From the NCBI GenBank assembly GCA_021789355.1, contig JAJYJR010000101.1, positions 1 through 12,882 on the forward strand: 12,882 bases of DNA. The letters run 5' to 3'. This document shows positions 1-12,882 of this stretch, in pieces; the first letter of the stretch is position 1, and each line of letters starts with the position of its first letter. Position numbers and translations under genes: made by a program. This DNA comes from Chloroflexota bacterium. Lineage in GTDB: Bacteria > Chloroflexota > Limnocylindria > Limnocylindrales > CSP1-4. Under the pieces are notes generated by a model. That model was not told the origin of the DNA. It saw only the letters and a program-made list of their open reading frames with translations, and made no database searches.

Positions 1-75
1 GATGCCCACCATCACGACGAGGCCGCCCAGCATCCATAGCCAGCCGCCGGGCCCGAGGCCGTAACCGAACATCAT
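1..75 (-). CDS. Small membrane protein, N-terminal fragment (truncated by window edge)
   Basis: The visible 25 residues begin [15 protein letters not shown] and continue into a hydrophobic stretch typical of a single membrane segment. A strong ribosome-binding site (GGAGGTG) lies a few bases upstream of the ATG at 75. The start overlaps the stop of the copper ATPase gene as ATGA, so translation is probably coupled. The opening resembles that of the small SHOCT-domain protein at 4068-4298 (double Met, Gly-rich, a Trp-Leu-Trp-Met motif, then a membrane helix). By analogy it may end in a SHOCT motif, but that part is outside the window. Function is unknown. I infer an accessory role in the copper island from position alone. 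Confidence 0.7.
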   Translation of the reverse strand, partial: MMFGYGLGPGGWLWMLGGLVVMVGI

Positions 76-2261
76 GGGAACACCTCCGTGGGTTGCAGGG
101 ACGAGGGAGACGGCTGCGGCGCCAGCCGGAGCCGGCGCAGCAGCTGGGCGTTGGCGGCCACGATGATGGTCGAGGCGCTCATCGCGACCGCCCCCACCGC
201 CATCGGCAGCTCGATGCCCCAGGGGGCGAGGATCCCCGCCGCGACCGGGATCGCCACCAGGTTGTAGGCGGTCGCCCAGGCGAGGTTCTGGAGCATCTTG
301 CGGTAGGTCGCGCGCGAGAGCGCGATGGCGCCGACCACGTCGCGCGGATCGCTGCGCACGAGCACGATGCCGGCCGACTCGATCGCCACGTCGGTGCCCG
401 CGCCGATGGCGATCCCGACGTCAGCGCTGGCCAGGGCGGGCGCGTCGTTCACCCCGTCGCCCACCATGGCGACCTTCCGCCCGCCGGCCTGGAAGCGCCG
501 CACGGCCTGCGCCTTGTCGTCCGGCAGCACCTGCGCCGCCACCTCGTCGATGCCGAGACGGCGCGCCACCGCGTCCGCCACCGCCTGCGCGTCCCCGGTG
601 ATCATGGCGACCCTGAGTCCCAGCGCATGGAGGCGATGGATCGCCTCGGGCGACTCGGGCCGGATCTCGTCCTCCAGCGCGAGGGCGCCGGCGACCCGCC
701 CATCGGCGACGACGTGGAGCACGGTGCGGCCCCCGCGCGACCAGGCGTCTCCGGCCGGGTCGGGATCGAGGCCCAGGTCGGCGAGCAGGCGGGGGCCGCC
801 CACGGCGACCACCCGGCCGTCGACCGCTGCCCGGGCACCGCGCCCGGGCAGCGCCTCGAAGCCGAGCGCAGCCGCCGTCTCGATCCCGCGGGACCGCGCG
901 CCTTCGACGATCGCCCGCGCGAGCGGGTGCTCCGAGTCGGCCTCCACCGAGGCGGCCAGGCGCAGGACCTCGGCCTCGTCGGCCCCGGAGACAGCGGCCA
1001 GGGCCGGCGCTCCCTTCGTGAGGGTGCCGGTCTTGTCGAAGATGACCAGGTCGAGGTCGCGTGCCCGCTCGAGGGCGGTGCGGTTCTTGACCAGGAGGCC
1101 GTTGCGGGCGCCCAGCGAGGTGCTGATGGCGATCACGAGCGGGATCGCGAGCCCCAGGGCATGCGGGCAGGCGATGACGAGCACGGTCGCCAGGCGCACG
1201 AGCGCCCCAGCCCGGTCGCCCTCGATCCACCAGAAGGCGAAGGTGATCGCCCCGGCGGCGACCGCGACGTAGAAGAGGACCGCGGCGGCCCGATCGGCGA
1301 GCGCCTGCGCCCGCGACGCCGACGCCTGCGCCGCGGCGACCATGCGCATGATCCCCGACAGCGCCGTCGCCTCGCCGACCGCCGTTACCCGGACGCGCAG
1401 GCTGCCGCCCGCGGCCACCGTGCCCGCCACGACCGTTGCGCCGGGCTCCTTTGGGACCGGGTGCGACTCGCCCGTGATCATCGACTCGTCGACGTCGGCT
1501 GCGCCCTCGGCGACCACCCCGTCGACCGGCACCCGGGCCCCCGGACGGACGAGGACGAGGTCGTCCACGGCGAGCGCGTCGAGCGGCACCGTCTCGATGC
1601 CGGCGTCGGTCACCCGCTCGGCGGTGTCGGGCAGCAGTTCCGCCAGCGCCGTCAGGGCGCCCCGGGCCTGCGCGATCGAGCGCATCTCGAGCCAGTGCCC
1701 GAGCAGCATGATGACGATGAGCGAGGCGAGCTCCCACCAGATCTCGATGTCGAAGAGCCCGAGGGTTCCGGCCCAGCTGGTGAGGAAGGCCACCACGATC
1801 GCCAGCGAGACAAGCGTCATCATGCCGGGCCGCCGATCGGCCAGCTCCCCGCGGGCGCCGCGCAGGAAGACGAGGCCGCCGTACAGGAAGACCAGTGTGC
1901 CGAGCACGGGCGGGATGAGTTCCGAGCCCGGGAACGTCGGCGCGGCGTAGCCGAGCCAGGCCTGCGGGTCGCGGCTCCAGGCGATCACCGGGATCGTCAG
2001 CGCCAGGCTCAGCCAGAACTTGTCGCGGAACATGGCGACCGAGTGGCCGGCATGGCGATCGTGCGCCGCGTGTCCCGTGCCGGGGTGGGTGCCGGGTTCG
2101 GCCGCATGGGCACCGTGCGCCGGCGCCGCCGTCTCGTGGGGCATCTGCTCGTGGTTCATCGGTGCGTGGTTCATCGGTGCGTGGTTCGCGTGGTGCTCGA
2201 TAATACTCCCTGGGGGTATTGTCGCATGCCGGTCCACCGCGCCCGGGAGCCGGGCGCTCAT
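72..2261 (-). CDS. copB: Copper-exporting P1B-type ATPase, CopB-like (CPH type)
   Basis: ATP-driven heavy-metal pump of the inner membrane, 729 aa from this start. Residues 23-73 form a His/Met-rich tail with NHAPM repeats instead of a ferredoxin-like CxxC domain. Family landmarks run in order: TGES (263-266) in the actuator domain, the CPH metal site in a membrane helix (365-367), the phosphorylated Asp in DKTGT (D409), SEHP (443-446), MITGD (553-557), GDGVND (601-606), then Tyr-Asn (666-667) and MSAST (694-698) in the last two helices. CPH plus a His-rich N-terminus is the CopB/P1B-3 pattern, so I infer copper or silver export. The chosen ATG overlaps the CcdA-like gene's stop (ATGA) but has no clear Shine-Dalgarno. 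A CsoR-like operator lies inside the first codons, so ATGs at 2174 (700 aa) or 2159 are real alternatives. Confidence 0.93.
2151..2187. repeat. 15-bp tandem repeat encoding the NHAPM motif
   Basis: The plus-strand unit GTGGTTCATCGGTGC occurs at 2151-2165 and 2166-2180, followed by a partial third copy (GTGGTTC). On the coding strand it gives Asn-His-Ala-Pro-Met repeats in the metal-binding tail of the ATPase. Being a multiple of three, copy-number change would add or remove His/Met ligands without a frameshift. Confidence 0.9.
2202..2220 (-). promoter_or_regulatory. CsoR-type copper operator with overlapping -10
   Basis: AATACTCCCTGGGGGTATT is a 19-bp palindrome about a central T, with one mismatch in nine arm positions. 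The AT-flanked C-run/G-run layout matches operators described for the Cu(I)-responsive repressor CsoR. On the minus strand TATTAT (2200-2205) overlaps one arm and could serve as a -10. No convincing -35 is seen 16-18 bp upstream. The site lies within the first 20 codons of the longest plausible ATPase reading frame, 28 bp upstream of the next in-frame ATG (2174). No csoR gene is in the window, so the regulator would act in trans. Confidence 0.7.
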
Positions 2262-3217
2262 GTGCCCAGCGAGAGCAGGAGCCCGAAGCTCATCGCCACC
2301 ACGCCGAGCGCCAGCACGGTCTTCACGACGGCCCCGTTGCGCCGGTTCCAACGCCCGAGGTTGCCCAGCACCCGCCGGTTCGAGACCAGCAGCAGGAAGA
2401 GGAGCAGGGGCAGGATGAAGGCGATGTTGTAGAGGACGAGCAGCGCGAGGCCCACCGGGCCGCCGCCCGAGGCGTGGAGCACCGCGATCACGTCGAGGTA
2501 GATGGCGCCCGAGCACGGCACGGTGCAGATGCCGACGAGGACGCCCGCCAGCAGCATGCCGGCCAGGCCGCCGCGCTGCATGGCCTTGTTCATCCAGCCG
2601 TGGGTGCCCGACGGCGCGGCCATCGTGGGCCCCCAGCCCGGGAAGAAGACGTCCTTCAGCATCCACACCGCCATGAGGAGCGCGAGCACCGCGGCGACGC
2701 GCGCCACGATGTGGTCCTGCCCCAGCCAGGCGAGGAAGCCGAAGAGCCCCAGGCCGATCAGGAAGTAGGTGATGACCACCGCCCCGACGTAGAGCGATCC
2801 CGCGCCCAGCAGCGTGCGCCGGGCCGACGCCGTCGGCGTCCCCTCGGCGGTGACGGCGTTGACCAGGGTGAGCGTGTAGGTCGCGAAGAGGACGAGCAGG
2901 GCGAAGGCACAGGGGTTGAACCCGTCGGCGACGCCACTGGCGATCACCACCGGCGCCGTCAGTCCCCCGAACTTCGCGGTCTCGAACGGCACGAGCGCGA
3001 CCGTGGCGAGCGAGAGCAGGCCAGCCGCGCCGAGTCCCGCGAACAGGGCGAGCGCGGTGCGCGGCAGGCCGGTACCTGCGACGAGGGTCACCCAGGGCGC
3101 CGTCGGGGCGGCCCCGGCCGGTGTGACCCCGGCCGGTGTGACCCCGACCGGTGTGGCCTCGTGGGAGCTGCGGCGACTCTCGGGCCTGACCGCCCGTGGG
3201 TCGTGGCAGTGGGACAT
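2258..3217 (-). CDS. CcdA/DsbD-like transmembrane thiol-electron transporter
   Basis: A polytopic membrane protein of 319 aa resembling the cytochrome c biogenesis/DsbD membrane domain, which moves reducing equivalents from cytoplasmic thioredoxin to outward-facing thiol proteins. The family's paired cysteines are visible: GVADGFNPCAF (C103) in an early helix and CTVPCSG (C231, C235) in a later one, with hydrophobic helices between and after. The N-terminus carries a small Cys/His cluster (MSHCHD) and a TPAGV repeat before the first membrane segment. The upstream cupredoxin gene ends TGA immediately before GTG-ATG. I chose the ATG at 3217; the GTG at 3220 adds one residue. Its stop overlaps the ATPase ATG. 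Next to a cysteine-bearing cupredoxin, it may keep that partner reduced, which is an inference. Confidence 0.85.
   Translation of the reverse strand: MSHCHDPRAVRPESRRSSHEATPVGVTPAGVTPAGAAPTAPWVTLVAGTGLPRTALALFAGLGAAGLLSLATVALVPFETAKFGGLTAPVVIASGVADGFNPCAFALLVLFATYTLTLVNAVTAEGTPTASARRTLLGAGSLYVGAVVITYFLIGLGLFGFLAWLGQDHIVARVAAVLALLMAVWMLKDVFFPGWGPTMAAPSGTHGWMNKAMQRGGLAGMLLAGVLVGICTVPCSGAIYLDVIAVLHASGGGPVGLALLVLYNIAFILPLLLFLLLVSNRRVLGNLGRWNRRNGAVVKTVLALGVVAMSFGLLLSLGT
3112..3156. repeat. Three 15-bp tandem repeats in the CcdA-like gene
   Basis: Plus-strand CCCCGGCCGGTGTGA occurs at 3112-3126 and 3127-3141, with a third copy at 3142-3156 differing at two bases. It encodes Thr-Pro-Ala-Gly-Val-type repeats in the N-terminal linker ahead of the first membrane helix. 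The repeat is in frame, so expansion or contraction only changes linker length. Confidence 0.9.
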
Positions 3218-3220
3218 CAC

Positions 3221-3730
3221 TCAGGCCGCCACGTGCAGTGTGCCGTGCATGTCGGGCGAGTCCCTGCCGCCGCAGCACGAGTCGCACCAGAAGTCGTAGT
3301 CGCCGGGCGTGGCCGGCGCCGTGAGGGTGATCGTCTCGCGCGACTCGGCCGGCAGCGCGTAGCGCACGCCGAGCGCGTCCGAGACGAGGGTGTGGACGCC
3401 ACCCTGCAGGTGCATCGCGGCGTCAGTGTTCCACCAGTCGAGCGTGATCGTCTGCCCGGGCTTCGCGTCGATGGTCGCGGGATCGAAGCCCGCCATGCTG
3501 ATCCGCACCGGGATCGCGCCGGCGACGTGCGTCTGGCCGCGCTGGCCCAGGAAGACGGACGCCGCCAGGTAGGTCCCCGCGCCAAGAACGAGGACGGCGA
3601 TCAGCCCGAAGGCGGCGATGCGGGGCAGGAGGTCGCGACGGCGCCGGCGCGCGCCGGCCTGCAGACGCTCTTCCTCCTGCTGCTCGGTCAGCTCCCGCTG
3701 CTCAGCGCGGCGGGACGAACGGGTGGTCAT
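3221..3730 (-). CDS. Membrane-anchored cupredoxin-domain protein
   Basis: 169 aa. A charged, Arg/Glu-rich cytoplasmic N-terminus (1-33) is followed by one membrane helix (about 34-62). The rest is an extracytoplasmic beta-rich domain with the cupredoxin pattern: Phe-Asp-Pro near 82-84, PGQTITLDWWN (91-101), and a C-terminal WCDSCCGG...MHG segment. Candidate copper ligands are H107 or H113, C149/C152/C153, M161 and H162. Ordinary cupredoxins have one Cys followed by His and Met. Here there are three Cys and no His between the CCGG and the Met, partly recalling a CuA-like cluster. GAGGA lies about 8 nt upstream of the ATG. The gene abuts the CcdA-like gene downstream. Probably a periplasmic-side copper carrier or electron-transfer protein; the exact metal site is uncertain. 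Confidence 0.8.
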   Translation of the reverse strand: MTTRSSRRAEQRELTEQQEEERLQAGARRRRRDLLPRIAAFGLIAVLVLGAGTYLAASVFLGQRGQTHVAGAIPVRISMAGFDPATIDAKPGQTITLDWWNTDAAMHLQGGVHTLVSDALGVRYALPAESRETITLTAPATPGDYDFWCDSCCGGRDSPDMHGTLHVAA

Positions 3731-3777
3731 GGTCGGTCCTCAGGCTGCGAGTGCCGGCTCGCCGTGTGCGGCGGCGT

Positions 3778-4071
3778 CTACCGGGTTGATGGGGCAGGCG
3801 AGGCCTCTCCCGACGCCCACGAGTGCATCGCGTCATGCGCCTCGTCGCATGCCTGGAGCAGCGCCGCACGCTGGGACGGATCGATTGATCCCATCATCCC
3901 GGGGCCGGAGGTGGCCCAGCCGCCCATCATCTGGCTCCAGGGCGTCGTGGTCGCCGCGGCATTCCCGGCGGCCGGGGCGGGGCTCGCGGCGAGGGCCGAG
4001 CCGGCCGCCCCCACCGCGATCCCGAGTGCCAGACCTGCGCCCAGCAGCAGTCCGCTTCGTGTGCGTGTCAT
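3778..4071 (-). CDS. Small secreted Met/His-containing protein, putative copper binder
   Basis: 97 aa with a clear signal peptide: basic MTRTR, a hydrophobic core, and a probable cleavage site after Ala-Leu-Ala at 26-28. The mature part has Ala/Pro/Thr-rich low complexity, then MMGG (48-51) and GMMG (58-61), and finally a probable helix with Cys75, His79, Met82 and His83. Met pairs plus C-x3-H-x2-MH suggest Cu(I) or Ag(I) binding, but I do not recognise a named family. The start has GGAGAAGGAG just upstream and overlaps the SHOCT gene's stop as ATGA. A longer in-frame version from 4326 would read antisense-like sequence through the SHOCT gene and is rejected. The 47-bp gap after it holds the cupredoxin ribosome-binding site. 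Confidence 0.75.
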   Translation of the reverse strand: MTRTRSGLLLGAGLALGIAVGAAGSALAASPAPAAGNAAATTTPWSQMMGGWATSGPGMMGSIDPSQRAALLQACDEAHDAMHSWASGEASPAPSTR

Positions 4072-4298
4072 GGATGTGTCTCCTTCTCCGTGTGCAGCAC
4101 GCGTCGTGCCTGCTCGAATTCGACCTCGGTGATCTCCCCGCGGGCGAACCGGGCGCGCAGGATCGCGTCTGGGTCGTCCGTCCAGGTGGAGCGCTCGCCG
4201 CCCCGCACGAGCAGCCAGACCATCGCGAGGAGCGCGACGACCCACACGCCCATCCAGAGCCAGGCGCCGAGCGTCATGTCGCCCCAGGCCGTCATCAT
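4068..4298 (-). CDS. Small membrane protein with C-terminal SHOCT domain
   Basis: 76 aa. A Trp/Met-rich membrane helix spans about residues 10-31 (WLWMGVWVVALLAMVWLLV). After a short linker comes a SHOCT motif at about 42-68 (DPDAILRARFARGEITEVEF), the short helical module often found at the C-terminus of small membrane proteins. TGGAGG lies about 8 nt before the double ATG (4298 and 4295). It is the first gene after the kinase, separated by about 105 bp that hold a candidate promoter and regulator site. Its stop overlaps the next start. SHOCT is thought to mediate oligomerisation; no enzymatic role is expected. Similar small proteins are common near copper genes, but the role is unknown. Confidence 0.85.
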   Translation of the reverse strand: MMTAWGDMTLGAWLWMGVWVVALLAMVWLLVRGGERSTWTDDPDAILRARFARGEITEVEFEQARRVLHTEKETHP

Positions 4299-4342
4299 GG
4301 CCGTGCCTCCAGTGCTCGCCGCTCATCCGAGCGACATGTCCG

Positions 4343-4370
4343 AGGCTAGGGGCGACGGGTCAGGAATCCA
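4343..4370 (-). promoter_or_regulatory. Candidate promoter for the SHOCT-to-copB operon
   Basis: On the minus strand TAGCCT (4343-4348) fits a TAnnnT -10. TGGATT (4365-4370) lies 16 bp upstream as a weak -35. Transcription would start near 4336, giving a leader of about 38 nt before the SHOCT gene. The -35 is poor, as expected for an activator-dependent promoter. This is a tentative call. Confidence 0.35.
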
Positions 4371-4391
4371 TGGAGGCCGGGTCTGGCCTTC

Positions 4392-4408
4392 CTCAAGATC
4401 CGCTCAAG
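4392..4408 (-). promoter_or_regulatory. Direct repeat with 11-bp period, candidate response-regulator site
   Basis: CTTGAG-N5-CTTGAG on the minus strand gives two hexamers exactly one helical turn apart, the arrangement bound by OmpR/PhoB-family dimers. It overlaps the kinase stop codon (4404-4406). It would sit about 56-72 bp upstream of the proposed start of the SHOCT operon, a usual activator position. The cognate regulator is probably the one encoded at 5498-6202. Confidence 0.5.
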
Positions 4409-5498
4409 CGGCGGGCAGCTCGACCGCGAACGTGGCGCCCCGGCCGGGGCCGTCGGACTCCGCCCACACGCGCCCCTCCATGGCCTGCGCCAGGGCGTGC
4501 GTGATGGCGAGCCCGATGCCCGAGCCGCCGAGTGCGCGCGACCGCGAGGGGTCCACCCGGTAGAAGCGCTCGAAGACCGACGCGCGCTGCTCCGCTGTCA
4601 GGCCGGGCCCCTGGTCGCGCACCGCCAGTACCACGCCCCGCGTCGAGCGCGTGCCGGTAACCCGGACCGCCGTGCCGTCGGCCGTGTAGCGCAGGGCGTT
4701 CGAGAGGTAGTTGTCGAGGATCTCGGCGAGGCGACCGCGGTCGGCGCGCACCAGGAGGCCGTCCGGCACCTCGAGCTCGAGCGCGAGGCCGCGCGCCGCG
4801 GCCTGCGGGCCGAAGCGCTCGACCACCTCACGCGCGAGCGTCGCGGCGTCGAACGCCTCGATCGCCAGGGGCAGCTGGCGCGCCTCCGCCCGCCACAGTT
4901 CCTGCAGGTCGGTGACGAGGCGGGTCAGGCGCGCCGTCTCCCCGCGCAGGAGGCGCCAGGTTTCGGGGCCCGCCGCCACGACCCCGTCCTCGAGTCCTTC
5001 GAGGTAGCCGTCGATGGTCGTCAGCGGTGTGCGTAGCTCGTGGGCCACGTCGCCCACCAGCTCGAGGCGGCGCCGCTCCGTCGCCTCGAGCGAACCCGCC
5101 ATCGCGTTGAACGAGGTGCCCAGCCCGGCGATCTCGTCGGTCCCGGACGCGGGCACGCGCTCCGCGTAGTGGCCCCGCGCGATGCGGCCGGCGGCGGCCG
5201 CCAGACGAGCGACAGGCCGGGCGATTGCCGAGGAGAGCGCGAGGCTCACGACGAGCGAGGTCACGACCGCGATCAGCCCGGCCGCGAGCAGGGCGTTGCG
5301 GACCGCGTCGTCGAAGGCCACCTTGGTCGCCGCGTCCATCGCGGCGCCCATCATGTCGCCCGCGGGATGGCCCATCGCCTGGGCGAAGTACCCGGGGCCG
5401 ACCAGGCTGACCGCCACCACCACGGTGCCGAGGACGGCGCCCGCGACGACGAGGTTGGCGAGCAGCAGGCGGCCGCGCAACCCGCCCGGCAGCCGCAT
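4404..5498 (-). CDS. Sensor histidine kinase of a two-component system
   Basis: 364 aa, a membrane-bound kinase expected to phosphorylate the adjacent regulator. TM1 is about 12-33 and TM2 about 69-90. They flank a short periplasmic loop of about 35 residues containing AMGHPAGDMMGAAMD (41-55), which carries four Met and one His and could bind Cu(I) or Ag(I). A HAMP domain (about 91-142) follows. The H-box is DVAHELRTPLT (H153), the N-box LDNYLSNALRYT (N267), G1 RDQGPGL, the F-box FERFYRVD and G2 GGSGIGLAI, so all catalytic boxes are intact. The ATG overlaps the regulator stop (TGATG). Metal sensing is inferred from the loop and the downstream genes. Confidence 0.95.
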   Translation of the reverse strand: MRLPGGLRGRLLLANLVVAGAVLGTVVVAVSLVGPGYFAQAMGHPAGDMMGAAMDAATKVAFDDAVRNALLAAGLIAVVTSLVVSLALSSAIARPVARLAAAAGRIARGHYAERVPASGTDEIAGLGTSFNAMAGSLEATERRRLELVGDVAHELRTPLTTIDGYLEGLEDGVVAAGPETWRLLRGETARLTRLVTDLQELWRAEARQLPLAIEAFDAATLAREVVERFGPQAAARGLALELEVPDGLLVRADRGRLAEILDNYLSNALRYTADGTAVRVTGTRSTRGVVLAVRDQGPGLTAEQRASVFERFYRVDPSRSRALGGSGIGLAITHALAQAMEGRVWAESDGPGRGATFAVELPAA

Positions 5499-6202
5499 CA
5501 GCGGGTCACCAGCCGGTATCCCACGCCGCGCACGGTCTCCACGAACCGGGGGTGTTCCGGGTCGTCACCGAGCTTGCGCCGCAGGTTGGCCACGTGCACG
5601 TCGACGAGGTGGTCGTCGCCCACGAAGTCGGAGCCCCAGATCCGGTCGAGCAGGGACGCCCGCCCCAGGACGACGCCCGGGTCCCGGACAAGCGCGGCGA
5701 GAATCTCGAACTCGGTGGCCGTCAGCTCGACCGGCGTGCCGTCGACCCGCACCTCGTGGCGCGCCTCGTCGAGTGAGAGTGCCGCAGGCGAGACCGCGGC
5801 CGCAACCGACGTTCTCGGGCGGCGCAGCAACGCCTTGACGCGCGCGACCAGCTCGCGCGGGCTGAACGGCTTGACCAGGTAGTCGTCGGCGCCGACCGAC
5901 AGTCCGACCACCCGGTCGATCTCCTCCCCGCGCGCCGTGAGCATCAGCACGTAGGCGTCCGAGAAGATGCGCAGCTGCCGGCACACCTCGACCCCGTCGA
6001 GCCCGGGCAGCATGACGTCGAGCACGAGCACGTCAGGCGACGCGGAGCGAGCCAGCTCGAGGCCCCGCGGCCCGTCCGCTGCGGAGAGCACCTCGAACCC
6101 CTCCCGTTCGAGGTACCCACGGACGAGGTCCACGATGGGGGGCTCGTCGTCCACGACGAGAACGCGCGGGGAGCGCGCTGATGCGGCCGGGTTCGTCTGC
6201 AT
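5498..6202 (-). CDS. OmpR/PhoB-family response regulator
   Basis: 234 aa from the ATG at 6202. The receiver domain has the acidic pair D18/D19 (VVDDE), phosphoacceptor D62 (VLDVMLPGLDG), switch T89 (LTARG) and K111 (LVKPF). The C-terminal winged-helix domain has the family's ELTATEFEILAAL opening and ends RRKLGDDPEHPRFVETVRGVGYRL. A GTG at 6217 would add five residues, and neither start has a strong Shine-Dalgarno. The gene is translationally coupled to the kinase. Its expected target is a tandem repeat with 11-bp spacing, and such a repeat is found right after the kinase gene. Control of the copper operon is the simplest reading. Confidence 0.95.
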   Translation of the reverse strand: MQTNPAASARSPRVLVVDDEPPIVDLVRGYLEREGFEVLSAADGPRGLELARSASPDVLVLDVMLPGLDGVEVCRQLRIFSDAYVLMLTARGEEIDRVVGLSVGADDYLVKPFSPRELVARVKALLRRPRTSVAAAVSPAALSLDEARHEVRVDGTPVELTATEFEILAALVRDPGVVLGRASLLDRIWGSDFVGDDHLVDVHVANLRRKLGDDPEHPRFVETVRGVGYRLVTR

Positions 6203-6240
6203 GCGGACATGGTCCACCAGCGCGCCAGATCTGGAAACCG

Positions 6241-6257
6241 CCCCCGTCCGGAGGGGG
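6241..6257 (-). terminator. Weak hairpin between upp and the response regulator
   Basis: CCCCC (6241-6245) can pair with GGGGG (6253-6257) across a 7-nt loop just after the upp stop. Only a TTT follows on the minus strand. It could attenuate readthrough from upp into the regulator gene, but the stem is short and there is no real U-tract. Confidence 0.25.
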
Positions 6258-6261
6258 TCCG

Positions 6262-6951
6262 TCAGTCGCTTTGACCCGTCCCGAACTGCCGGTCACCGGC
6301 GTCGCCCAGGCCCGGCAGGATGTAGCCGCGCTCGTTGAGCTGCCGGTCCACGCCGGCGCAATAGATCGCGACGTCGGGGTGCGCCGAGGTGACCGCGCGG
6401 ATCCCCTCGGGGGCCGCGATCAGGTTCACCAGCTTGATGCGCACCGCGCCCCAGCGTTTGAGCACCTCGATGGCGGCCGTCGCCGAGCCCCCGGTCGCCA
6501 GCATCGGGTCGAGGATCAGGCACAGGTCGACCGTGGCCGAGTCGGGGAGCTTGTTGTAGTACTCCACCGGCCGCAGCGTCCGTTCGTCGCGGAACAGGCC
6601 GAGATGCCACACCTGGGCGGTGGGCATCAGCTCGAGCATCGCGTCGAGCATCCCGAGGCCCGCGCGCAGGATCGGCACCAGGCCGATCCGGTCGGCCAGC
6701 ACGGCGCCCACCGTCTCCTCCATCGGCGTGACGACCGGCACGTCGCGGAGCCGTGCGTCCGCAAGCGCCTCGTACCCCACCAGCCAGCTGATCTCCCGGA
6801 CCAGCTCCCGGAACTTCTTCGGTTCGGTGCGCTGGTCACGCAGGAGCGCGAGCTTGTGGAGGATGGCGGGATGGTGCGACACGTGGACCGTCGGCGGGAG
6901 CCACCCGAGGTCGGCTGCGACGGGAGAGTGGGCGGAATCTGCCACGCGCAT
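6262..6951 (-). CDS. upp: Uracil phosphoribosyltransferase
   Basis: 229 aa cytosolic salvage enzyme converting uracil and PRPP to UMP. Family marks include [16 protein letters not shown] (24-39), MEETVGAVL (77-85), RAGLGM (96-101), the PRPP loop [11 protein letters not shown] (147-157) and the uracil-binding end [16 protein letters not shown] (210-225). It carries about 20 more N-terminal residues than typical members, which start close to the V-x-H-P motif. An in-frame GTG at codon 24 is therefore an alternative start. For the ATG at 6951 an AGGAG lies only 1 nt upstream, an unusually short spacing. The gene faces away from the asparaginase gene and lies upstream of the regulator on the same strand. 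Confidence 0.97.
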
Positions 6952-6983
6952 GCTCCTGATTCATCTCAGGGGAGTCGCGGCCG

Positions 6984-6989
6984 ATCCTA
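6984..6989 (-). promoter_or_regulatory. Candidate -10 of the upp promoter
   Basis: TAGGAT on the minus strand, 32 bp upstream of the upp ATG, fits TAnnnT and gives a leader of about 26 nt. No recognisable -35 is present at 16-18 bp. Confidence 0.35.
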
Positions 6990-7013
6990 GCATCCGGGAG
7001 CCCCGGCCGGAGG

Positions 7014-7106
7014 GACGTCGTGACGTCAGCGGATACCGGCCCGCCCCGGCCGGATGGGTTGCGTGCCCGCCGCGCCGCTGTCGGATGCCGGCCCGCCCCG
7101 GACCGG
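7014..7106. repeat. Repeats in the upp/asparaginase divergent region
   Basis: GACGTC occurs at 7014-7019 and 7022-7027, the second within the perfect palindrome TGACGTCA (7021-7028). A 23-24-bp GC-rich direct repeat beginning GGATACCGGCCCGCCCCGG at 7031 recurs at 7083 with one substitution and one inserted base. These lie between the two divergent starts and could be operator sites, or simply GC-rich drift. No coding sequence is supported here. Confidence 0.5.
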
Positions 7107-7115
7107 CCGACGCGC

Positions 7116-7121
7116 TACCAT
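7116..7121 (+). promoter_or_regulatory. -10 element close to the asparaginase start
   Basis: TACCAT (TAnnnT) lies 9 nt before the ATG at 7131, and 3 nt before an in-frame GTG at 7125. With no Shine-Dalgarno upstream, transcription probably begins at or next to the start codon, giving a leaderless or nearly leaderless mRNA. The same hexamer precedes gltX. Confidence 0.5.
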
Positions 7122-7130
7122 CCCGTGTGC

Positions 7131-8303
7131 ATGCCAGATCGGCGAGCCACCACCGCGACGCTCCCGCGCCCGCCGGCGCAACAGCCGCGCGTGTCCCAGC
7201 CCCGGGGCCGTGCCGGTCGCTGGCCACGAGGCGCCGCTCCTCCGGTCCTGGTCGAGGTGCGCCGGGGCGGGATCGCGGAGAGCCGGCACCGGGGCCATGT
7301 CGTCCAGGTGGGGGCCGACGGCGCGATCGAGCGCGTGATCGGCGACCCCCAGGTCGTGGTGGCGCTGCGCTCCGCGGCCAAGCCGCTGGGGCTCGCCGCG
7401 TTCGTCGAATCGGGCGCGGCCGACGCGTTCGAGCTGTCGGCGCCCGAGCTGGCCGTCCTGGCGGCCTCGCACTCCGGCGAGGACCTGCACGTGCGCACGA
7501 TCCAGGCGATCCTCCGGCGAGCCGGGATCAGCCAGACCTTCCTCGGGTGTGGCACGGAGAACGCGCCGCTCGACCAGCTGACCGCACAGCGGCTGGCACG
7601 CGACGGCGAGCGACCTGGCGCGATTCGCCACCAGTGCTCCGGGCAGCACGCGTCGTTCCTGCTCTTCGCGAAGCACGCGGGCTGGCCGCTGGAGGACTAT
7701 TGGCTGCCGGAGCATCCGACGCAGGTCGCCTTCCGCGAGGCGCTGGCGCGCGTGCTGCGCCTGCCGGTCGGCGAACTCGTCACGTCGGTGGACGCCTGCG
7801 GGATCCTGACATACCACGTCCCGCTCGTCGACGTGGCCCGCGCCTACGCGCTGCTGGCCGACCCGGCCGGCGTCGCCGGCGACCAGGTGCGCCGGACGCT
7901 GGTACCGGCGCTGACCAGGATCCGCGATGCGATGCTTGCCGCCCCCGACCTCGTGGCCGGGCCACGCGAGCGGTTCGACACCGCGCTCATGCGCACCTTG
8001 CCCGGCCGCGTGGTCGCGAAGGGGGGCGCGGAGGCGCTGCAGGGTGTCTCCCTCCTGCCGGGGAGCAGACCGGGGCAGAAGGCGGCGGGCGGCCTGGCCG
8101 TCAAGATCGACGATGGCGACGGGCGGGGACGCGCGCGGCCTGCGGTGGCCGTCGAGGCGCTCCGCCAGATGGGCGTGCTCGGCGACGCCGAACTGCGACG
8201 GCTCGCCCCGTATCACCGTCCGCCGCTCCACGACCCACGGGGGGCCATCGTGGGCGAGGTCGTGACGTCCTTCGAGCTGGCCCCCCTGTCAGAACTTCGC
8301 TGA
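7131..8303 (+). CDS. L-asparaginase II-like protein (ReAII/COG4448 family)
   Basis: 390 aa. This family, unrelated to E. coli AnsA/AnsB, hydrolyses L-asparagine to aspartate and ammonia in characterised rhizobial members. Visible motifs are RSAAKP (80-85), holding the S-x-x-K pair (S81, K84), SHSGE (113-117), CGTENAP (140-146), HQCSGQH (167-173) and DACG (221-224). In the rhizobial enzyme Zn is held by Cys, Lys and Cys spaced 3 and 51 residues apart. Here the matching residues are C169, Q172 and C223, so the Lys is replaced. The first 36 residues are low-complexity and Pro/Arg-rich; a GTG at 7191 is an alternative start. Activity on asparagine is therefore uncertain. Confidence 0.85.
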   Translation: MPDRRATTATLPRPPAQQPRVSQPRGRAGRWPRGAAPPVLVEVRRGGIAESRHRGHVVQVGADGAIERVIGDPQVVVALRSAAKPLGLAAFVESGAADAFELSAPELAVLAASHSGEDLHVRTIQAILRRAGISQTFLGCGTENAPLDQLTAQRLARDGERPGAIRHQCSGQHASFLLFAKHAGWPLEDYWLPEHPTQVAFREALARVLRLPVGELVTSVDACGILTYHVPLVDVARAYALLADPAGVAGDQVRRTLVPALTRIRDAMLAAPDLVAGPRERFDTALMRTLPGRVVAKGGAEALQGVSLLPGSRPGQKAAGGLAVKIDDGDGRGRARPAVAVEALRQMGVLGDAELRRLAPYHRPPLHDPRGAIVGEVVTSFELAPLSELR

Positions 8304-8310
8304 CGGGGCT

Positions 8311-8940
8311 GTGTCCGTGCAGCCGGCCGGCGACCCGTACCGTGTGCTCGGCGTTCGCCGGGACGCGACGCCAGGCGAGGTCAAGACGGCCCACCGGCGG
8401 CTCGCCAAGGCCCACCACCCCGACGCCGGTGGCGACCCGGCGCGCTTTCTGGCCATCCAGGCCGCGTATCAGATGCTCGCGGATCCCGTCCAGCGGAGCC
8501 GGTGGGACGCGGCGCATTCGCCGGGCCCGGTTGCCGCTCACGATCCCTGGACGGAGAGCGGCGGGCCGGGCCACCGGCGGGGGCGGGCGGCACGTCCCGC
8601 CGGGGAGCGGCAGAACGCGGCGCCTGGCGATGGGCCGGGGACCGTGCCCCGCGGCCCGACCGGCACCGCGCCTGGTGGGCCACCGGAGGACGTGGGGCAG
8701 CACCCTGCCGGGTCGGCGGGTGGCCCGACGATGGACGCGTTCGTGCGGTCGAGCGGCGCGGCCTGGTCGGCGGCCTCGCGTGCCTACTTCCGCCGGGTCG
8801 CGACCGAGGTCCCGCACGGAGCCCGAATCGACCACGGCCCACAGACTGGCCGGGGCGCCACCGGTGGAGCGGCGGTGGACGGGACCGCTGGCGGGGTTGG
8901 GCGGCTCGTCCGGCGGGTCGCCCGCGCCATCAGGGGCTGA
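8311..8940 (+). CDS. J-domain (DnaJ-like) protein with disordered tail
   Basis: 209 aa. The N-terminal J domain (about 8-67) reads DPYRVLGVRRDATPGEV and has the essential HPD at 36-38, so it should stimulate the ATPase of a DnaK partner. There is no Gly/Phe region, zinc finger or client-binding domain of canonical DnaJ. The rest (about 70-150) is Gly/Pro/Arg-rich and probably disordered. It is followed by a short more ordered piece (about 157-185) and a basic C-terminus (RLVRRVARAIRG). The GTG start lies 7 nt after the asparaginase stop, suggesting co-transcription. A second in-frame GTG at 8317 is possible. The specific role is unknown. Confidence 0.8.
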   Translation: MSVQPAGDPYRVLGVRRDATPGEVKTAHRRLAKAHHPDAGGDPARFLAIQAAYQMLADPVQRSRWDAAHSPGPVAAHDPWTESGGPGHRRGRAARPAGERQNAAPGDGPGTVPRGPTGTAPGGPPEDVGQHPAGSAGGPTMDAFVRSSGAAWSAASRAYFRRVATEVPHGARIDHGPQTGRGATGGAAVDGTAGGVGRLVRRVARAIRG

Positions 8941-8960
8941 CACTGCCGCCTGTTCCGGCG

Positions 8961-8998
8961 TTGCCCAATTCCGAGTCCATGGGTAAGATTTCGCCCAT
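8961..8998 (+). promoter_or_regulatory. efeU promoter with inverted repeat around the -10
   Basis: TTGCCC (8961-8966), a 17-bp spacer and TAAGAT (8984-8989) make a good sigma-70-type promoter, each hexamer matching 4 of 6 consensus bases. ATGGG (8979-8983) and CCCAT (8994-8998) form an inverted repeat flanking the -10, a position where a repressor would block transcription. It does not match a classical Fur box or the DtxR/IdeR consensus as I know them. Confidence 0.55.
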
Positions 8999-9025
8999 CT
9001 GCCGGGACTCGGGGACGGACGGACC

Positions 9026-9031
9026 AGGAGG
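9026..9031 (+). promoter_or_regulatory. Ribosome-binding site fixing the efeU TTG start
   Basis: AGGAGG, six bases before TTG at 9038, is the strongest Shine-Dalgarno on the plus strand of the window. It decides for the rare TTG start, since no ATG or GTG is available in frame before the conserved MINGLLIGLREG opening. Confidence 0.8.
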
Positions 9032-9037
9032 CGCGGG

Positions 9038-9901
9038 TTGATCAACGGGCTCCTCATCGGGCTGCGGGAGGGCGTCGAGGCGTCGCTCGTAGTCGGGATC
9101 GTGGTCGCGTACCTGGTGCGCACCGGCAACCGGCAGCATCTCCCCCGGGTCTGGGCGGGGACGCTCGGGGCGGTCGCCGCGTCCGTCCTGCTCGGCCTGG
9201 TCCTGTACGTGACCGTCGGCGACCTTCGAGCCCCGTACGAGCAGATGTTCGAGGGTGCCACGATGCTGCTCGCGACCGCCGTCGTGACCTGGATGCTGTT
9301 CTGGATGCGCGGCCAGTCGCGCGCGCTCCGCGGGCATCTCGAGGCACAGCTGGCGCGGGCCCTGACGTCGGGTGGAGCCTGGGGCCTGGCCGTGCTGGCC
9401 TTCAGCGCCGTCATCCGCGAGGGCATCGAGACCTCGCTGTTCGTGTTCGGCCAGGTCACGGCCGTCGCCGGTGCCGGCACGACCGGTGCGGGTGCCACCG
9501 GGGGCGCCGCGGGAGTCCTCGCCGGCACCATCGTCGGTCTCGTCGTGGCGGCCGGCATCGGGTACGCGATCTACCGCGGCAGCCGGCGCGTCAACCTGCG
9601 CGTGTTCTTCAACTGGACGGGGATCGCGCTCGTGTTCATCGCCGCGGGCCTGGTGTCCCGCGCGGTGCACGAGTTCGTCGAGGTGGGAGCCATCAGGATC
9701 GGCACCCAGACCGCATTCGATGCACGCGGCATCCTCTCGCAGGACCAGACCGTGGGATCCTTCCTGCGTGCCGTGCTCGGGTACTCCTCGCAGCCCGAGG
9801 TCGTGACGGTCGTGGTCTATCTGCTGTACGTCGGCGCCGTGCTCGCCCTGTACACGCTGCCGCAGCGGCAGGCACGCCCCGTCCAGCCCCAGGCCGCGTA
9901 G
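9038..9901 (+). CDS. efeU: FTR1/EfeU-family iron permease
   Basis: 287 aa multi-helix inner-membrane protein importing iron. Both REGxE signatures of the family are present: REGVE (10-14) in the first helix and REGIE (127-131) in a central one, each followed by a Ser-Leu. About seven hydrophobic helices can be drawn, with a Gly/Ala/Thr-rich loop at 144-160. In EfeUOB systems the permease works with EfeO and the peroxidase EfeB. Neither follows here; gltX is next. It may act alone or with partners elsewhere. The gene has its own promoter and a TTG start with an ideal ribosome-binding site. Confidence 0.93.
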   Translation: MINGLLIGLREGVEASLVVGIVVAYLVRTGNRQHLPRVWAGTLGAVAASVLLGLVLYVTVGDLRAPYEQMFEGATMLLATAVVTWMLFWMRGQSRALRGHLEAQLARALTSGGAWGLAVLAFSAVIREGIETSLFVFGQVTAVAGAGTTGAGATGGAAGVLAGTIVGLVVAAGIGYAIYRGSRRVNLRVFFNWTGIALVFIAAGLVSRAVHEFVEVGAIRIGTQTAFDARGILSQDQTVGSFLRAVLGYSSQPEVVTVVVYLLYVGAVLALYTLPQRQARPVQPQAA

Positions 9902-9965
9902 GCGCGGGCGTCCGGGGCGCACGCCTCGTCCATCGGCCGGGAGGGCCTGTCGGGCGGCGCGGCGG

Positions 9966-9971
9966 TACCAT
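9966..9971 (+). promoter_or_regulatory. -10 element giving a probably leaderless gltX mRNA
   Basis: TACCAT ends 7 nt before the GTG start at 9979, so the transcription start should fall on or next to the start codon. No Shine-Dalgarno is present. No clear -35 is seen at 16-18 bp. Confidence 0.55.
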
Positions 9972-9978
9972 CGGCGGC

Positions 9979-11493
9979 GTGACCGTACGCTGCCGCATCG
10001 CCCCCAGCCCGACGGGGCCGCTCCACATCGGGACCGCGCGCACCGCGCTGTACAACTTCCTGTTCGCCCGGCACGAGGGCGGCGCCTTCGTGCTGCGGCT
10101 GGAGGACACCGACGTCGCCCGCTCGACCGTCGCGTACGAGCGCGACATCCTCGAGGGGCTCCACTGGCTCGGCCTGGAGTGGGACGAGGGCCCGGAGGTC
10201 GCCGGCCAGCCGGCGCGCGGACCCTATGCCCCGTATCGCCAGATGGAGCGCCTCCCGCTCTACCGGGACGCCGCCGAGCGGCTCCTCGCGCAGGATCTCG
10301 CGTATCCCTGCTACTGCACCCGGGAGGAGCTCGACGCGGATCGGGCCGCCCAGGAGGCCGCGCGCCAGCCGCCCCGCTACATCGGTCGCTGCGCCCGCCT
10401 CACCGCGGATCAGCGCCGTGCCCGGGAGGCCGAGGGGCGGCGGCCCGCCGTCCGCTTCCGGATCCCACCCGGGGCGGTGGGCTTCGACGACATCGTCCGG
10501 GGCCACGTCGAGATCGAGTCCGACACGCTGGGCGGCGACCTCGTGATCGTGCGCTCCGACGGCACCCCCCTGTACCACTTCACGGTGGTCGTCGACGACG
10601 CGGAGATGGCGATGACCCACGTCATCCGCGGCGAGGATCACCTCTCGAACACGCCGAAACACATCCTGCTGTTCCGCGCCCTCGGCGCCGAGGTTCCCGC
10701 GTTCGCGCACCTGCCGCTGATCCTGAACCCCGACCGCACCAAGATGAGCAAGCGCAAGTCGCAGACGGCTATCGCCGACTATCGCCGCCAGGGCTTCATG
10801 CGCGAGGCACTGGTGAACTTCCTCGCGCTCCTGGGATGGGCCAGCGGCACCGAGGAGGAGATCTTCACGCTCGACGAGCTCGTCGAGCGGTTCGACCTGT
10901 CGCGCGTGCACTCCGGCGGGGCCGTCTTCGACCGCGAGCGGCTGGAGTGGCTGAACGGCCAGTGGATCCGCCGCCTGCCCACGGAGGAACTCGCCGAGCG
11001 GCTCGTGCCGTTCCTCTCGGCCGACCTTGCGCTGCGCACGGAGAACGGCGCACGCCTGGTGCGCGAGCCGACCGTGGAGGACATGCGCCCGCTGATGCCG
11101 CTGGTGCAGGAGCGGCTGCCGGTCCTGGGCGCGATCGGCGAGCTGGTCGACTTCCTGTTCATCGATCCGATCGCCGTCGAGCCGGCGCTGCTGGTGCCGA
11201 AGCGGTGGGATGCCGGGACTACGGTGGAGGGGCTCGAGGCGGCACGCGACGTGATCGCGGCGCAGGGCCGGGTGAGCTTCGAGGCGGATGAGCTCGAGGG
11301 GCCCCTTCGCGAGCTCGCGAGCCGGCGCGGCTGGAAGGCCGGTGACCTGTTCATGGCGATCCGGGTGGCGATCACCGGCCGGACTGCCACGCCACCCCTG
11401 TTCGACACGATGGTCGCGCTCGGCCGGGCTCGAACGCTCGACCGGCTGGACGCCGCTGCCGGGGCGCTCCGGGAGCGGCTTTCGGCGAGCTGA
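9979..11493 (+). CDS. gltX: Glutamyl-tRNA synthetase
   Basis: 504 aa class I aminoacyl-tRNA synthetase charging tRNA with glutamate. The protein opens RIAPSPTGPLHIGTA, with the HIGH-type motif at 16-19 (HIGT), and has KMSKR at 255-259. A zinc-binding C-x-C...Y-x3-C arrangement is present (C111, C113, Y134, C138), as in E. coli GltX. FDDIVRG, IVRSDGTPLYHF and RGEDHLSNTPKH are family blocks of the catalytic domain. The C-terminal half is the helical anticodon-binding region. Length is normal. Whether it is discriminating or also charges tRNA-Gln cannot be told from the motifs. The start is GTG at 9979, supported by the adjacent TACCAT and the immediate start of conserved sequence. Confidence 0.98.
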   Translation: MTVRCRIAPSPTGPLHIGTARTALYNFLFARHEGGAFVLRLEDTDVARSTVAYERDILEGLHWLGLEWDEGPEVAGQPARGPYAPYRQMERLPLYRDAAERLLAQDLAYPCYCTREELDADRAAQEAARQPPRYIGRCARLTADQRRAREAEGRRPAVRFRIPPGAVGFDDIVRGHVEIESDTLGGDLVIVRSDGTPLYHFTVVVDDAEMAMTHVIRGEDHLSNTPKHILLFRALGAEVPAFAHLPLILNPDRTKMSKRKSQTAIADYRRQGFMREALVNFLALLGWASGTEEEIFTLDELVERFDLSRVHSGGAVFDRERLEWLNGQWIRRLPTEELAERLVPFLSADLALRTENGARLVREPTVEDMRPLMPLVQERLPVLGAIGELVDFLFIDPIAVEPALLVPKRWDAGTTVEGLEAARDVIAAQGRVSFEADELEGPLRELASRRGWKAGDLFMAIRVAITGRTATPPLFDTMVALGRARTLDRLDAAAGALRERLSAS

Positions 11494-11578
11494 CGCACCC
11501 CGGCGGGCCGACGCGCGCCGGTCCCCGTCCGCGCCGCGCGCCTGCGGTGTGGCTCCGGTGCTGTGCCGGGCCGGCTGG
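11494..11578. other. Convergent gltX/pit intergenic region
   Basis: 85 bp between two converging stops. It is extremely GC-rich, with only short imperfect inverted repeats (for example CCGGC and GCCGG around 11503-11525) and no T-tract on either strand. No convincing intrinsic terminator is seen. Confidence 0.5.
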
Positions 11579-12589
11579 CTACGTGCCCGTGACCGCGTGG
11601 AGGATCGCCCACGCGATCGCGGCGACGGAGGCGCTGGCCGGGATCGTCAGCACCCAGGCCCAGACGATGGAGCCGGCGATGCCCCATCGCACGGCTGAGA
11701 ACCGATCGCTTGCGCCGGAGCCCATGATCGCGCCGGAGACGACGTGCGTGGTCGACACCGGCATGCCCAGGTGGCTCGCCGCGACGATGACGGTCGCGGC
11801 AGCGGTCTCGGCGGCGAACCCGTGGACGGGATCCAGCTTCACTACCCGCTGGCCCATCGTCCTTATGATCCGCCACCCGCCTGCCGCGGTGCCCAGCGAG
11901 ATCGCACCGGCCGCCAGCACCATGACCCAGATTGGGACCTTGAACGCGGGCAGGATCCCGGCCGTGACCAGCGCAGCTGTCATGATCCCCATCGTCTTCT
12001 GGGCGTCGTTGGAGCCATGGCTGAACGCCATGTACGCGGCGGACACCAGCTGGAGCCGGCGGAAGCGCTCGTTGATGCGATGCGGGTCGGCGTGCCTGAA
12101 CACGTTGAGCAGCACGACCATCACCAGGAACGCCCCCAGCAGACCGACGACCGGTGAGCCCACGAGAGGACCGACGACTTTCGTCAGGATCGCGTCCACG
12201 CGCACGCCGGAGGCTCCGACCGCCGCGAGCGTTGCCCCGAGTAACCCGCCGATCAGGGCGTGGCTGCTCGAGCTGGGAAGCCCGAGCCGCCAGGTCAGCA
12301 GATTCCAGGTGATTCCCCCGATCAGTGCCGCCGCGATGATGACCTGTCCGTGGCTCCCGGCCGGCGTCGTGACGATGCCGCTGCCGATGGTCGTTGCCAC
12401 CGCCGTGCCGGTGAGGGCGCCAAGAAAATTCGCGATCGCGGAGAGGACGATCGCGAACTCTGGACGCAGCGCCCGCGTGGACACCGAAGTGGCAATCGCA
12501 TTCGCCGTGTCGTGGAATCCGTTGATGTAGTCGAACAGAACGGCCAGCCCGAACAGCGCGATCAGCGAGTACGTGACCCCCGCGCTCAT
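11579..12589 (-). CDS. pit: PiT-family inorganic phosphate permease
   Basis: 336 aa polytopic membrane protein, the low-affinity ion-coupled phosphate (or metal-phosphate) transporter family. The duplicated family signatures are GFHDTANAIAT (24-34) in the N-terminal half and HGSNDAQKTMG (191-201) in the C-terminal half. Each is paired with a second repeat block: GLPSSSSHALIGG (103-115) and GMPVSTTHVVSG (275-286). Length matches short bacterial and archaeal PiT proteins lacking the long central loop. The ATG at 12589 has only a weak GGA upstream. Many pit genes sit next to a PhoU-like/DUF47 gene. Here the gene downstream on the minus strand is the convergent gltX and the divergent neighbour is unidentified. 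Confidence 0.95.
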   Translation of the reverse strand: MSAGVTYSLIALFGLAVLFDYINGFHDTANAIATSVSTRALRPEFAIVLSAIANFLGALTGTAVATTIGSGIVTTPAGSHGQVIIAAALIGGITWNLLTWRLGLPSSSSHALIGGLLGATLAAVGASGVRVDAILTKVVGPLVGSPVVGLLGAFLVMVVLLNVFRHADPHRINERFRRLQLVSAAYMAFSHGSNDAQKTMGIMTAALVTAGILPAFKVPIWVMVLAAGAISLGTAAGGWRIIRTMGQRVVKLDPVHGFAAETAAATVIVAASHLGMPVSTTHVVSGAIMGSGASDRFSAVRWGIAGSIVWAWVLTIPASASVAAIAWAILHAVTGT

Positions 12590-12621
12590 CGCGTCCGGCT
12601 CGCCAGGATGGCAGGAGTTGG

Positions 12622-12627
12622 ATTATC
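12622..12627 (-). promoter_or_regulatory. Candidate -10 of the pit promoter within a short palindrome
   Basis: GATAAT on the minus strand matches TATAAT at five of six bases, giving a leader of about 26 nt before the pit ATG. It lies within the 9-bp palindrome GGATTATCC (12620-12628), so a regulator could control it. The -35 is unclear. The same 80-bp gap must also hold the promoter of the divergent gene. Confidence 0.4.
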
Positions 12628-12670
12628 CTGATACGCGCTAGCTGGTCCCGTATTCGAAGGGAAACATGGC

Positions 12671-12882
12671 GTGAAAATCCGTAAGACCGATGCGTCGGCA
12701 ATGGCGCCGGCACCGACCCGACCCGCGCGCCCGTTGAGCCCGGCGGCCCAGGCCCGGCTCGAACAGGCGGAACTCCTGCGCAGGTCGGTGATCGACCGGC
12801 TCGAGGGCCCCGACGACGTGTTCAAGGTCGCGCTCGACGAGGGCGAGAAGGCGGCCTCCATTCGCCAGCGGCTCCTGAAGGT
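12671..12882 (+). CDS. Unidentified protein, N-terminal part (runs off the window)
   Basis: An open frame of 70 codons without stop from GTG at 12671 to the window end. AAGGG (12657-12661) lies 9 nt upstream as a plausible ribosome-binding site, and an ATG at 12701 is a fallback start. The first 24 residues are Ala/Pro/Arg-rich. From about residue 25 the sequence looks helical and charged (ARLEQAELLRRSVIDRLEGP, then DDVFKVALDEGEKAASIRQR). No signal peptide or membrane segment is seen. I do not recognise the family. It is divergent from pit and does not look like the PhoU/DUF47 partner often found there. Confidence 0.55.
   Translation, partial: MKIRKTDASAMAPAPTRPARPLSPAAQARLEQAELLRRSVIDRLEGPDDVFKVALDEGEKAASIRQRLLK

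Follow-up and report, generated by a model that had tools for sequence, protein, structure and literature searches.

What holds together the copper-related genes on the minus strand of a contig from a Chloroflexota bacterium of Limnocylindria type (GenBank assembly GCA_021789355.1, contig JAJYJR010000101.1, positions 1 to 12,882; this whole stretch of 12,882 nucleotides is called the window below)? The original prediction described eight same-strand genes under a two-component system as a coupled copper island, in which a CopB pump might hand exported Cu(I) to a cysteine-rich cupredoxin kept reduced by a CcdA-like thiol protein. We find that the locus holds a copper-related module that is real and conserved; the cupredoxin/CcdA-like pair forms its core, and the eight-gene island is one local assembly of it. 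The function that we favour for the pair, with close to even confidence, is that of a two-protein copper module in which the CcdA-like protein would send electrons outward, keeping the thiols of the cupredoxin able to reduce and bind copper. The two genes of the pair are as follows.

3221..3730, minus strand: membrane-anchored cupredoxin P0003, CxxCCGG motif, 169 aa (PF13473; invariant residues; predicted model with pLDDT 88.8)
2258..3220, minus strand: CcdA-like membrane protein P0002, 320 aa, with C104, C232 and C236 (invariant cysteines; best Foldseek match CcdA 5vkv)

Conservation of the cupredoxin/CcdA-like pair

A search of 301 Chloroflexota genomes from each side, using profiles built from pairs, returned 32 matches to the CcdA-like protein (E ≤ 1e-20) and 30 matches to the cupredoxin (E ≤ 1e-12), and 26 of each are adjacent on one strand. 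These counts, like those of our other genome searches, are lower bounds, since only the best first-look candidates per genome were scored. The sample also includes the genomes of some of our own loci (G001, G002, G004, G010 and G068), so relatives missing one partner are perhaps under-sampled. The six CcdA-like matches without a cupredoxin comprise one thioredoxin-fused protein (G202:C98), three long open frames of 566-688 aa, one that was not fetched and one that is partial, while the four cupredoxin matches without a partner comprise a duplicate copy (G068) and three weak matches. Within a close group of 36 loci, the cupredoxin gene precedes the CcdA-like gene in 31/31 loci where the flank is long enough. 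The predicted tie between a cysteine-rich cupredoxin and a CcdA-like thiol protein is therefore near-obligate in Chloroflexota (26/30 cupredoxins and 26/32 CcdA-like proteins), with a fused thioredoxin-like domain in partnerless relatives, and the conservation of the pair is far beyond chance.

Conservation of the gene set in related genomes was the check that the original prediction had proposed, and the full eight-gene set is not generally conserved. In the close group, the SHOCT gene is found in 21/29 loci and the two-component pair in 12/26, the latter within a strict position window. CopB is variable: of the 25 relatives whose downstream sequence spans at least 3 kb, 4 have a CopB of at least 65% identity that lies on the same strand and begins no more than 4.5 kb away, 8 have another copper ATPase instead and 13 have neither. 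The close relatives in our genome scan are Chloroflexota metagenome genomes, and Limnocylindrales is named in one protein source. At L014 we observed that the stretch from the regulatory box described below through SHOCT and cupredoxin is duplicated (11771-12613 and 7312-7935); in one copy the CcdA-like gene is missing, and a CPC-type copper ATPase comes next.

The pair also occurs in Rokubacteria, in one Gemmatimonadetes genome and in Ca. Methanoperedens. At E ≤ 1e-30, the CcdA-like profile is matched in 10/95 genomes of the phylum of the Rokubacteria seed, 22/246 of that of the Methanoperedens seed, 2/249 of that of the Gemmatimonadetes seed and 1/1 of that of the 'Deltaproteobacteria' seed. 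Ten loci were read in the Rokubacteria phylum: eight have the cupredoxin motif, one lies at a contig edge and one is a thioredoxin fusion. By comparison, the twelve loci read in the archaeal phylum show the cupredoxin motif in the seed genome only, the other eleven being thioredoxin-like fusions. The Gemmatimonadetes seed has the cupredoxin motif (L076, at a contig edge), and the other genome of that phylum carries a fusion.

The CcdA-like protein and its partners

P0002 matches no Pfam family at E ≤ 0.1, and so is not a DsbD_TM match, and its NCBIfam match is sub-threshold; we call it CcdA-like because of its relatives and its fold. DsbD_TM is matched at E ≤ 0.01 in 16 of 65 CcdA-like relatives, and C104, C232 and C236 are invariant in all 65. 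CcdA and DsbD_TM proteins have a six-helix core whose first and fourth helices carry the active cysteines. The cysteines of P0002 agree with this placement, C104 lying in model helix 103-123 and C232/C236 in model helix 204-250 (the helix numbering is our own). The best Foldseek match of the P0002 model is CcdA 5vkv; against solved structures, phmmer gave weak or no matches for the protein, and the family profile gave none.

A second structural comparison gave a mixture of CcdA, Nramp and amino-acid transporters, and 12/65 CcdA-like relatives touch the SfLAP family. Such matches would suit a protein that itself transports copper or a sulphur compound, with the cupredoxin as its outer binding protein. 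We consider this improbable, as the invariant cysteines in CcdA-like places and the thioredoxin-like fusions in relatives point instead to thiol chemistry.

We collected 107 distinct CcdA-like domains, a set that excludes identical rows, domains shorter than 200 aa and proteins without the PC motif, such as L101-L103. A same-strand CxxCCGG cupredoxin lies within 1.5 kb upstream of 89 of these domains, and 14 have an N-terminal thioredoxin-like CxxC stretch in the same open frame; three more lie at contig edges and one (L022) is not assessable. One cupredoxin-bearing row of the 107 also has an upstream CxxC match in its open frame. The N-terminus of L101, a protein outside the set, looks thioredoxin-like by eye. 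On a quick maximum-likelihood tree, which has long branches, the fused domains fall on one side of a single branch (SH-aLRT 87), equivalent to one label change. Given this either-or pattern and the one change on the tree, we read the cupredoxin as taking the place of the thioredoxin-like partner of the CcdA-like protein, and this apparent exchange is the strongest, though indirect, evidence for thiol transfer. We further propose, with somewhat less than even confidence, that a cupredoxin took over from thioredoxin as the outer partner in a CcdA-type system, so that reducing power of the cell would cross the membrane into a copper site; the result would be a recharging cupric reductase and Cu(I) carrier common to Chloroflexota, Rokubacteria and methane-oxidising archaea.

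Among the archaeal fusions of a thioredoxin-like domain to the CcdA-like domain, those of L126-L136 read FELPC or VELPC instead of CTVPC, the first of the two cysteines being lost.

The predicted copper site of the cupredoxin

Alignment of 61 cupredoxins shows that H113, C149, C152, C153 and M161 are invariant (61/61). The cupredoxin profile resembles CuA domains and the copper chaperone CupA, and the predicted model, which includes a membrane-anchor helix, has fold matches to Cupredoxin_1, CuA and CupA; phmmer searches of the cupredoxin against solved structures gave weak or no matches. The CuA ligand set (His, C-x3-C, His, Met) is partly present as H113, C149/C153 and M161, but it is incomplete, as a His between C153 and M161 is absent in 61/61, and C152 is an extra cysteine. 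Cupredoxins of the CxxCCGG type have so far been named by domain only, or as 'plastocyanin' or 'cytochrome c oxidase subunit II' in some sources, and the pair offers a function hypothesis for them.

Gene order and regulation in the window

The other features of the locus are listed here.

5498..6217, minus strand: OmpR/MtrA-type response regulator (Response_reg and Trans_reg_C, Pfam)
4404..5498, minus strand: histidine kinase with a short Met/His-containing outer loop, AMGHPAGDMMGAAM (HAMP, HisKA, HATPase_c)
4392..4408, minus strand: direct-repeat box CTTGAGCGGATCTTGAG, 11-bp period, probable response-regulator site (enrichment over shuffles; position before SHOCT genes)
4068..4298, minus strand: small membrane protein with a SHOCT domain, 76 aa (PF09851; found in 21/29 relatives)
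3778..4071, minus strand: secreted Met/His-containing protein, 97 aa (translation; similar protein in L003)
2203..2219, minus strand: palindrome ATACCCCCAGGGAGTAT, a CsoR-like operator that overlaps TATTAT, by eye a possible -10 box (11 such sites in 960 kb)
72..2174, minus strand: CopB-type copper P1B ATPase with CPH motif and His/Met-rich N-terminus (TIGR01511 above cut-off; ACPHAL)
1..75, minus strand: small membrane protein, probably another SHOCT protein, of which the window includes only the first 25 codons (translation; L005)

Transcription thus runs from the response regulator through the kinase, SHOCT, secreted, cupredoxin, CcdA-like and CopB genes to the start of the last small membrane protein. 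The predicted set of eight same-strand genes under a two-component system is real, with Pfam or NCBIfam support for the ATPase, the cupredoxin, the SHOCT protein and the two-component pair; an Rfam scan of the window gave no match. That most starts overlap or abut is true of four of the seven joints (a 1-nt overlap of regulator and kinase, a 4-nt overlap of SHOCT and secreted protein, the abutting cupredoxin and CcdA-like genes, and a 4-nt overlap of CopB and the last protein), but not of the other three, where the gaps are 105, 47 and 83 nt. Small SHOCT proteins had been predicted as well; the first matches its Pfam family, but the second is cut at the window edge and probably has a SHOCT domain, as a SHOCT match comes after the pump in relative L005.

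The 97-aa secreted protein, a putative buffer in the original prediction, matches no family above cut-off, and look-alikes occur in some relatives only. L011 and L029 carry fusions of the Met-rich secreted stretch with a copper domain of plastocyanin type (Pfam was checked for L029 only). On the opposite strand of the window, an EfeU/FTR1-type iron permease gene (9038-9901) lies beside a DnaJ-domain gene (8311-8940) and an asparaginase II gene (7134-8303).

The ATPase scores 570.6 bits against TIGR01511 (cut-off 397), and this copper ATPase model, its His/Met-rich N-terminus and its CPH motif, which is that of P1B-3 pumps, place it in the CopB type. CsoR operators are palindromes of the form TAC-CC..GG-GTA, and one of this type stands at the presumed CopB promoter of the window. 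The pattern ATAC[CT]CC-N0-4-GG[AG]GTAT has 11 sites in 960 kb (76 loci plus the window) versus 0.05 expected; expected counts for this operator and for the box below each come from 20 mononucleotide shuffles. Eight of the 11 sites are found 10-29 nt ahead of a copper ATPase start, and the others lie 27 nt before a secreted cupredoxin (L035), between a lipoprotein gene and SHOCT-cupredoxin-CcdA genes (L030), and elsewhere (L049). The CopB start is most likely ATG 2174, 29 nt past the palindrome. A start in an ATGA overlap with the CcdA-like gene was rejected, as the pump frame of L005 opens only past the stop codon of the CcdA-like gene, with the aligned start 28 nt downstream of the L005 operator.

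A Cys-His-Cys triad is the signature of CsoR. CsoR-family genes are present in 13/13 related genomes, with the triad in all six loci read. From the operator we infer that CopB in the window is controlled mainly by a CsoR-type repressor. Short CsoR-like genes also lie near the pair in some Chloroflexota (L015, L016, L042, L059, L067, L074 and L075); by eye these lack the triad, and we did not count them as CsoR. Perhaps they encode a repressor that has lost metal sensing.

These data bear on whether all eight genes form one CopB-centred export unit that passes pumped Cu(I) to the cupredoxin. The gene order of the window would suit such a unit, and CopB also follows the pair in L002, L005 and L029, in the last of these about 12 nt past the CcdA-like gene, with the strict operator absent in L002 and L029. 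Across the loci, the strict operator stands on 2/6 CPH pumps (the window and L005, not L002, L011, L029 or L035) and, by our own count, on 6/14 CPC pumps of the close group. However, CopB of this type is found in only 4/25 relatives, and in both the window and L005 it is preceded by an operator of its own, so we regard the export unit as very improbable. On CopB's own operator in the window and its variability we reject a single fixed transcription unit for the eight genes, and for the same reasons Cu(I) hand-over from CopB to the cupredoxin, which had been proposed as part of the unit, is not a conserved link.

The box TTGA[CG]N6TTGA, with its 11-bp period, has 39 sites in 462 kb versus 0.7 expected, and 16 sites in 15 loci, the window included, come after a kinase gene. 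It stands before the SHOCT gene in the window and in 17/21 SHOCT-bearing relatives, the strict box being absent in L004, L015, L022 and L023. The same box precedes genes for HMA-DsbD_2-cupredoxin proteins in L016, L017 (by eye), L021, L026, L030, L033 and L034; the Pfam domains of these proteins were confirmed for L021 and L013 only, the cupredoxin part falling below its cut-off. By eye, an outer AMGH loop is common to the window kinase and to the kinases directly upstream of the pair in relatives. On its sequence and position, the box is a probable candidate for the response-regulator site. The predicted two-component control would accordingly fit the SHOCT-cupredoxin-CcdA part of the locus.

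Cytochrome c maturation genes near the pair

The pair has a different setting in archaea and Rokubacteria. The genes of archaeal locus L069 run CcmE, CcmF, CcmH, unknown, CcmH, unknown, cupredoxin, CcdA-like, PCYCGC, YHS, DUF2933, with the pair on the same strand as the cytochrome c maturation (ccm) genes. A CcmF-like cluster is present in 12/18 Methanoperedens-type loci (Pfam checked for L069 and L073), the other six being short on that side. In Rokubacteria, L049 reads DsbD_2, CcmF, thioredoxin-like, CcmH, cupredoxin, CcdA-like, and in L048 the sequence upstream of the pair contains a thioredoxin-like gene and CcmH. In Chloroflexota, L001 (209-7135) has a ccm set (ABC protein, CcmB, Cytochrom_C_asm, CcmF, DsbD_TM) head to head with the pair on the opposite strand. 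No ccm gene was seen in the window among open reading frame translations, Pfam or NCBIfam matches.

Given this proximity to ccm genes in archaea and Rokubacteria, the main rival explanation is that the pair belongs to the assembly of cytochromes c or copper enzymes, as a thiol-reducing branch of it, with the nearby copper homeostasis genes secondary. The cupredoxin would then act beside or in place of CcmG/ResA or Sco/PCuAC, handing electrons or copper to apo-proteins, and its CuA-like ligands would suit a CuA assembly factor. The ccm settings of L069, L048, L049, L001 and the Methanoperedens-type loci, together with the mixed structural matches of P0002, weigh against the copper module that we favour. 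Among L001-L044, however, a CcmF-like cluster gene occurs only in L001, and many of these loci carry copper ATPases, CsoR-like sites and the shared box. Moreover, the ccm loci of L049 and L001 already have their own DsbD-type protein, L049 also has its own thioredoxin-like protein, and separate DsbD_TM proteins are present in 8/8 Methanoperedens-type genomes. A dsbE match at E ≤ 1e-5 is lacking in all 8 of these genomes, as an assembly role would predict, but this absence is weak, since the methanogen control Methanosarcina acetivorans also has no match; the matches in 4/4 Chloroflexota are all below the model cut-off. We consider an assembly role possible but doubtful. The copper and assembly readings have the electron-supply step in common.

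Two adjacent Pfam-less genes (131-200 aa and 163-170 aa) lie near the pair in both Methanoperedens and Chloroflexota (L069:9727-10617 and L008:9250-10346); by eye, the 163-170 aa protein has a CC..H motif in a hydrophobic stretch. L045, L048 and the Methanoperedens-type loci also share a protein family, mostly 160-200 aa long, which has 41 genes in 18 loci and often stands in tandem copies downstream of the pair.

A proposed mechanism for the pair

We favour a copper module because of the near-obligate pairing, the either-or of partners, the invariant residues, the CuA and CupA profile and fold matches of the cupredoxin, and the CcdA best match of its partner. The copper setting in Chloroflexota (ATPases, CsoR-like operators, CsoR genes and the box before HMA-DsbD_2-cupredoxin genes) and the precedents of ScsB/ScsC (excerpts of PMC8900818) and CupA (excerpts of PMC5646241) argue for the same reading.

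We infer electron flow, copper binding and orientation as follows. The CcdA-like protein would take cytoplasmic electrons, probably from thioredoxin, and pass them through C104 and C232/C236 to the outer face. There C149, C152 and C153 of the membrane-anchored cupredoxin, which is probably at the outer face, would be kept reduced. The reduced cupredoxin could bind Cu(I) via H113, its cysteines and M161, perhaps after itself reducing Cu(II) to Cu(I). Its role would be to carry copper, or keep it safe, at the outer face, either for export or to load copper enzymes. The two-component system would control the SHOCT-secreted-cupredoxin-CcdA genes, and CopB in the window would answer mainly to its presumed CsoR-type repressor. 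In Ca. Methanoperedens and Rokubacteria, such a mechanism would tie the handling of copper to thiol chemistry and to the maturation of cytochrome c.

Comparison with known systems

We found no description of the cupredoxin/CcdA-like pair in the open-licence literature, subscription literature being mostly outside our scope. Open-licence searches aimed at Limnocylindria with copper resistance, and at DsbD_2 with cupredoxin, likewise gave no paper. PMC9145763 covers cupredoxin, CcdA and copper together and, in the excerpts available, does not describe the pair. Excerpts of three further papers report DsbD genes up under copper limitation in an archaeon (PMC7785015), archaeal ccm (PMC9084895) and, for a Chloroflexi metagenome-assembled genome, a DsbD_2 and cupredoxin protein listed beside a P-type ATPase and CsoR (PMC8756737).

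The HMA-DsbD_2-cupredoxin proteins resemble the pair in joining a DsbD-type membrane domain to a cupredoxin, in several of the same loci and behind the same box. Unlike the pair, each is a single fused protein of the DsbD_2 family, and its cupredoxin is by eye of the C...CxMxM type. CuA domains of N2O reductase and cytochrome oxidase share the fold of P0003, and their C-x3-C, first His and Met align with it, whereas P0003 lacks the second His and has the extra Cys152. CcdA with ResA or CcmG likewise combines a membrane thiol electron carrier with an outer thiol partner, and CcdA is described in oxidase assembly (excerpts of PMC9145763); there, however, the partner is thioredoxin-like and the substrate is apo-cytochrome c.

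CupA of Streptococcus pneumoniae is, like P0003, a membrane-anchored cupredoxin with a Cys/Met copper site, encoded in a cop operon (excerpts of PMC5646241 and PMC7558416). It uses the ligands C74, C111, M113 and M115 (excerpts of PMC5646241) and is described as acting inside the cell, whereas P0003 has H, CxxCC and M, probably outside; the two distant cysteines and C-x-M-x-M of CupA are replaced by CxxCC...M. The cysteines of CupA reduce Cu(II), and the source of their re-reduction is stated there to be unknown, with thioredoxin suggested; no CcdA partner is named in the excerpts of either paper. The pair hints at a way of recharging cysteine-dependent copper carriers: its cupredoxin has a thiolate site and is accompanied by an apparent electron supplier of its own, which makes the question testable with two proteins.

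Another close parallel is ScsB-ScsC: the DsbD-type membrane protein ScsB maintains the outer thiol protein ScsC in its reduced state, and each of the two binds Cu(I) (excerpts of PMC8900818). ScsC has a thioredoxin fold with a CXXC site, whereas P0003 is a cupredoxin and its membrane partner P0002 is small and CcdA-like. The general type, a membrane thiol reductant with a copper-binding partner, is already known, and the pair would be an apparently new variant in which that partner is a cupredoxin.

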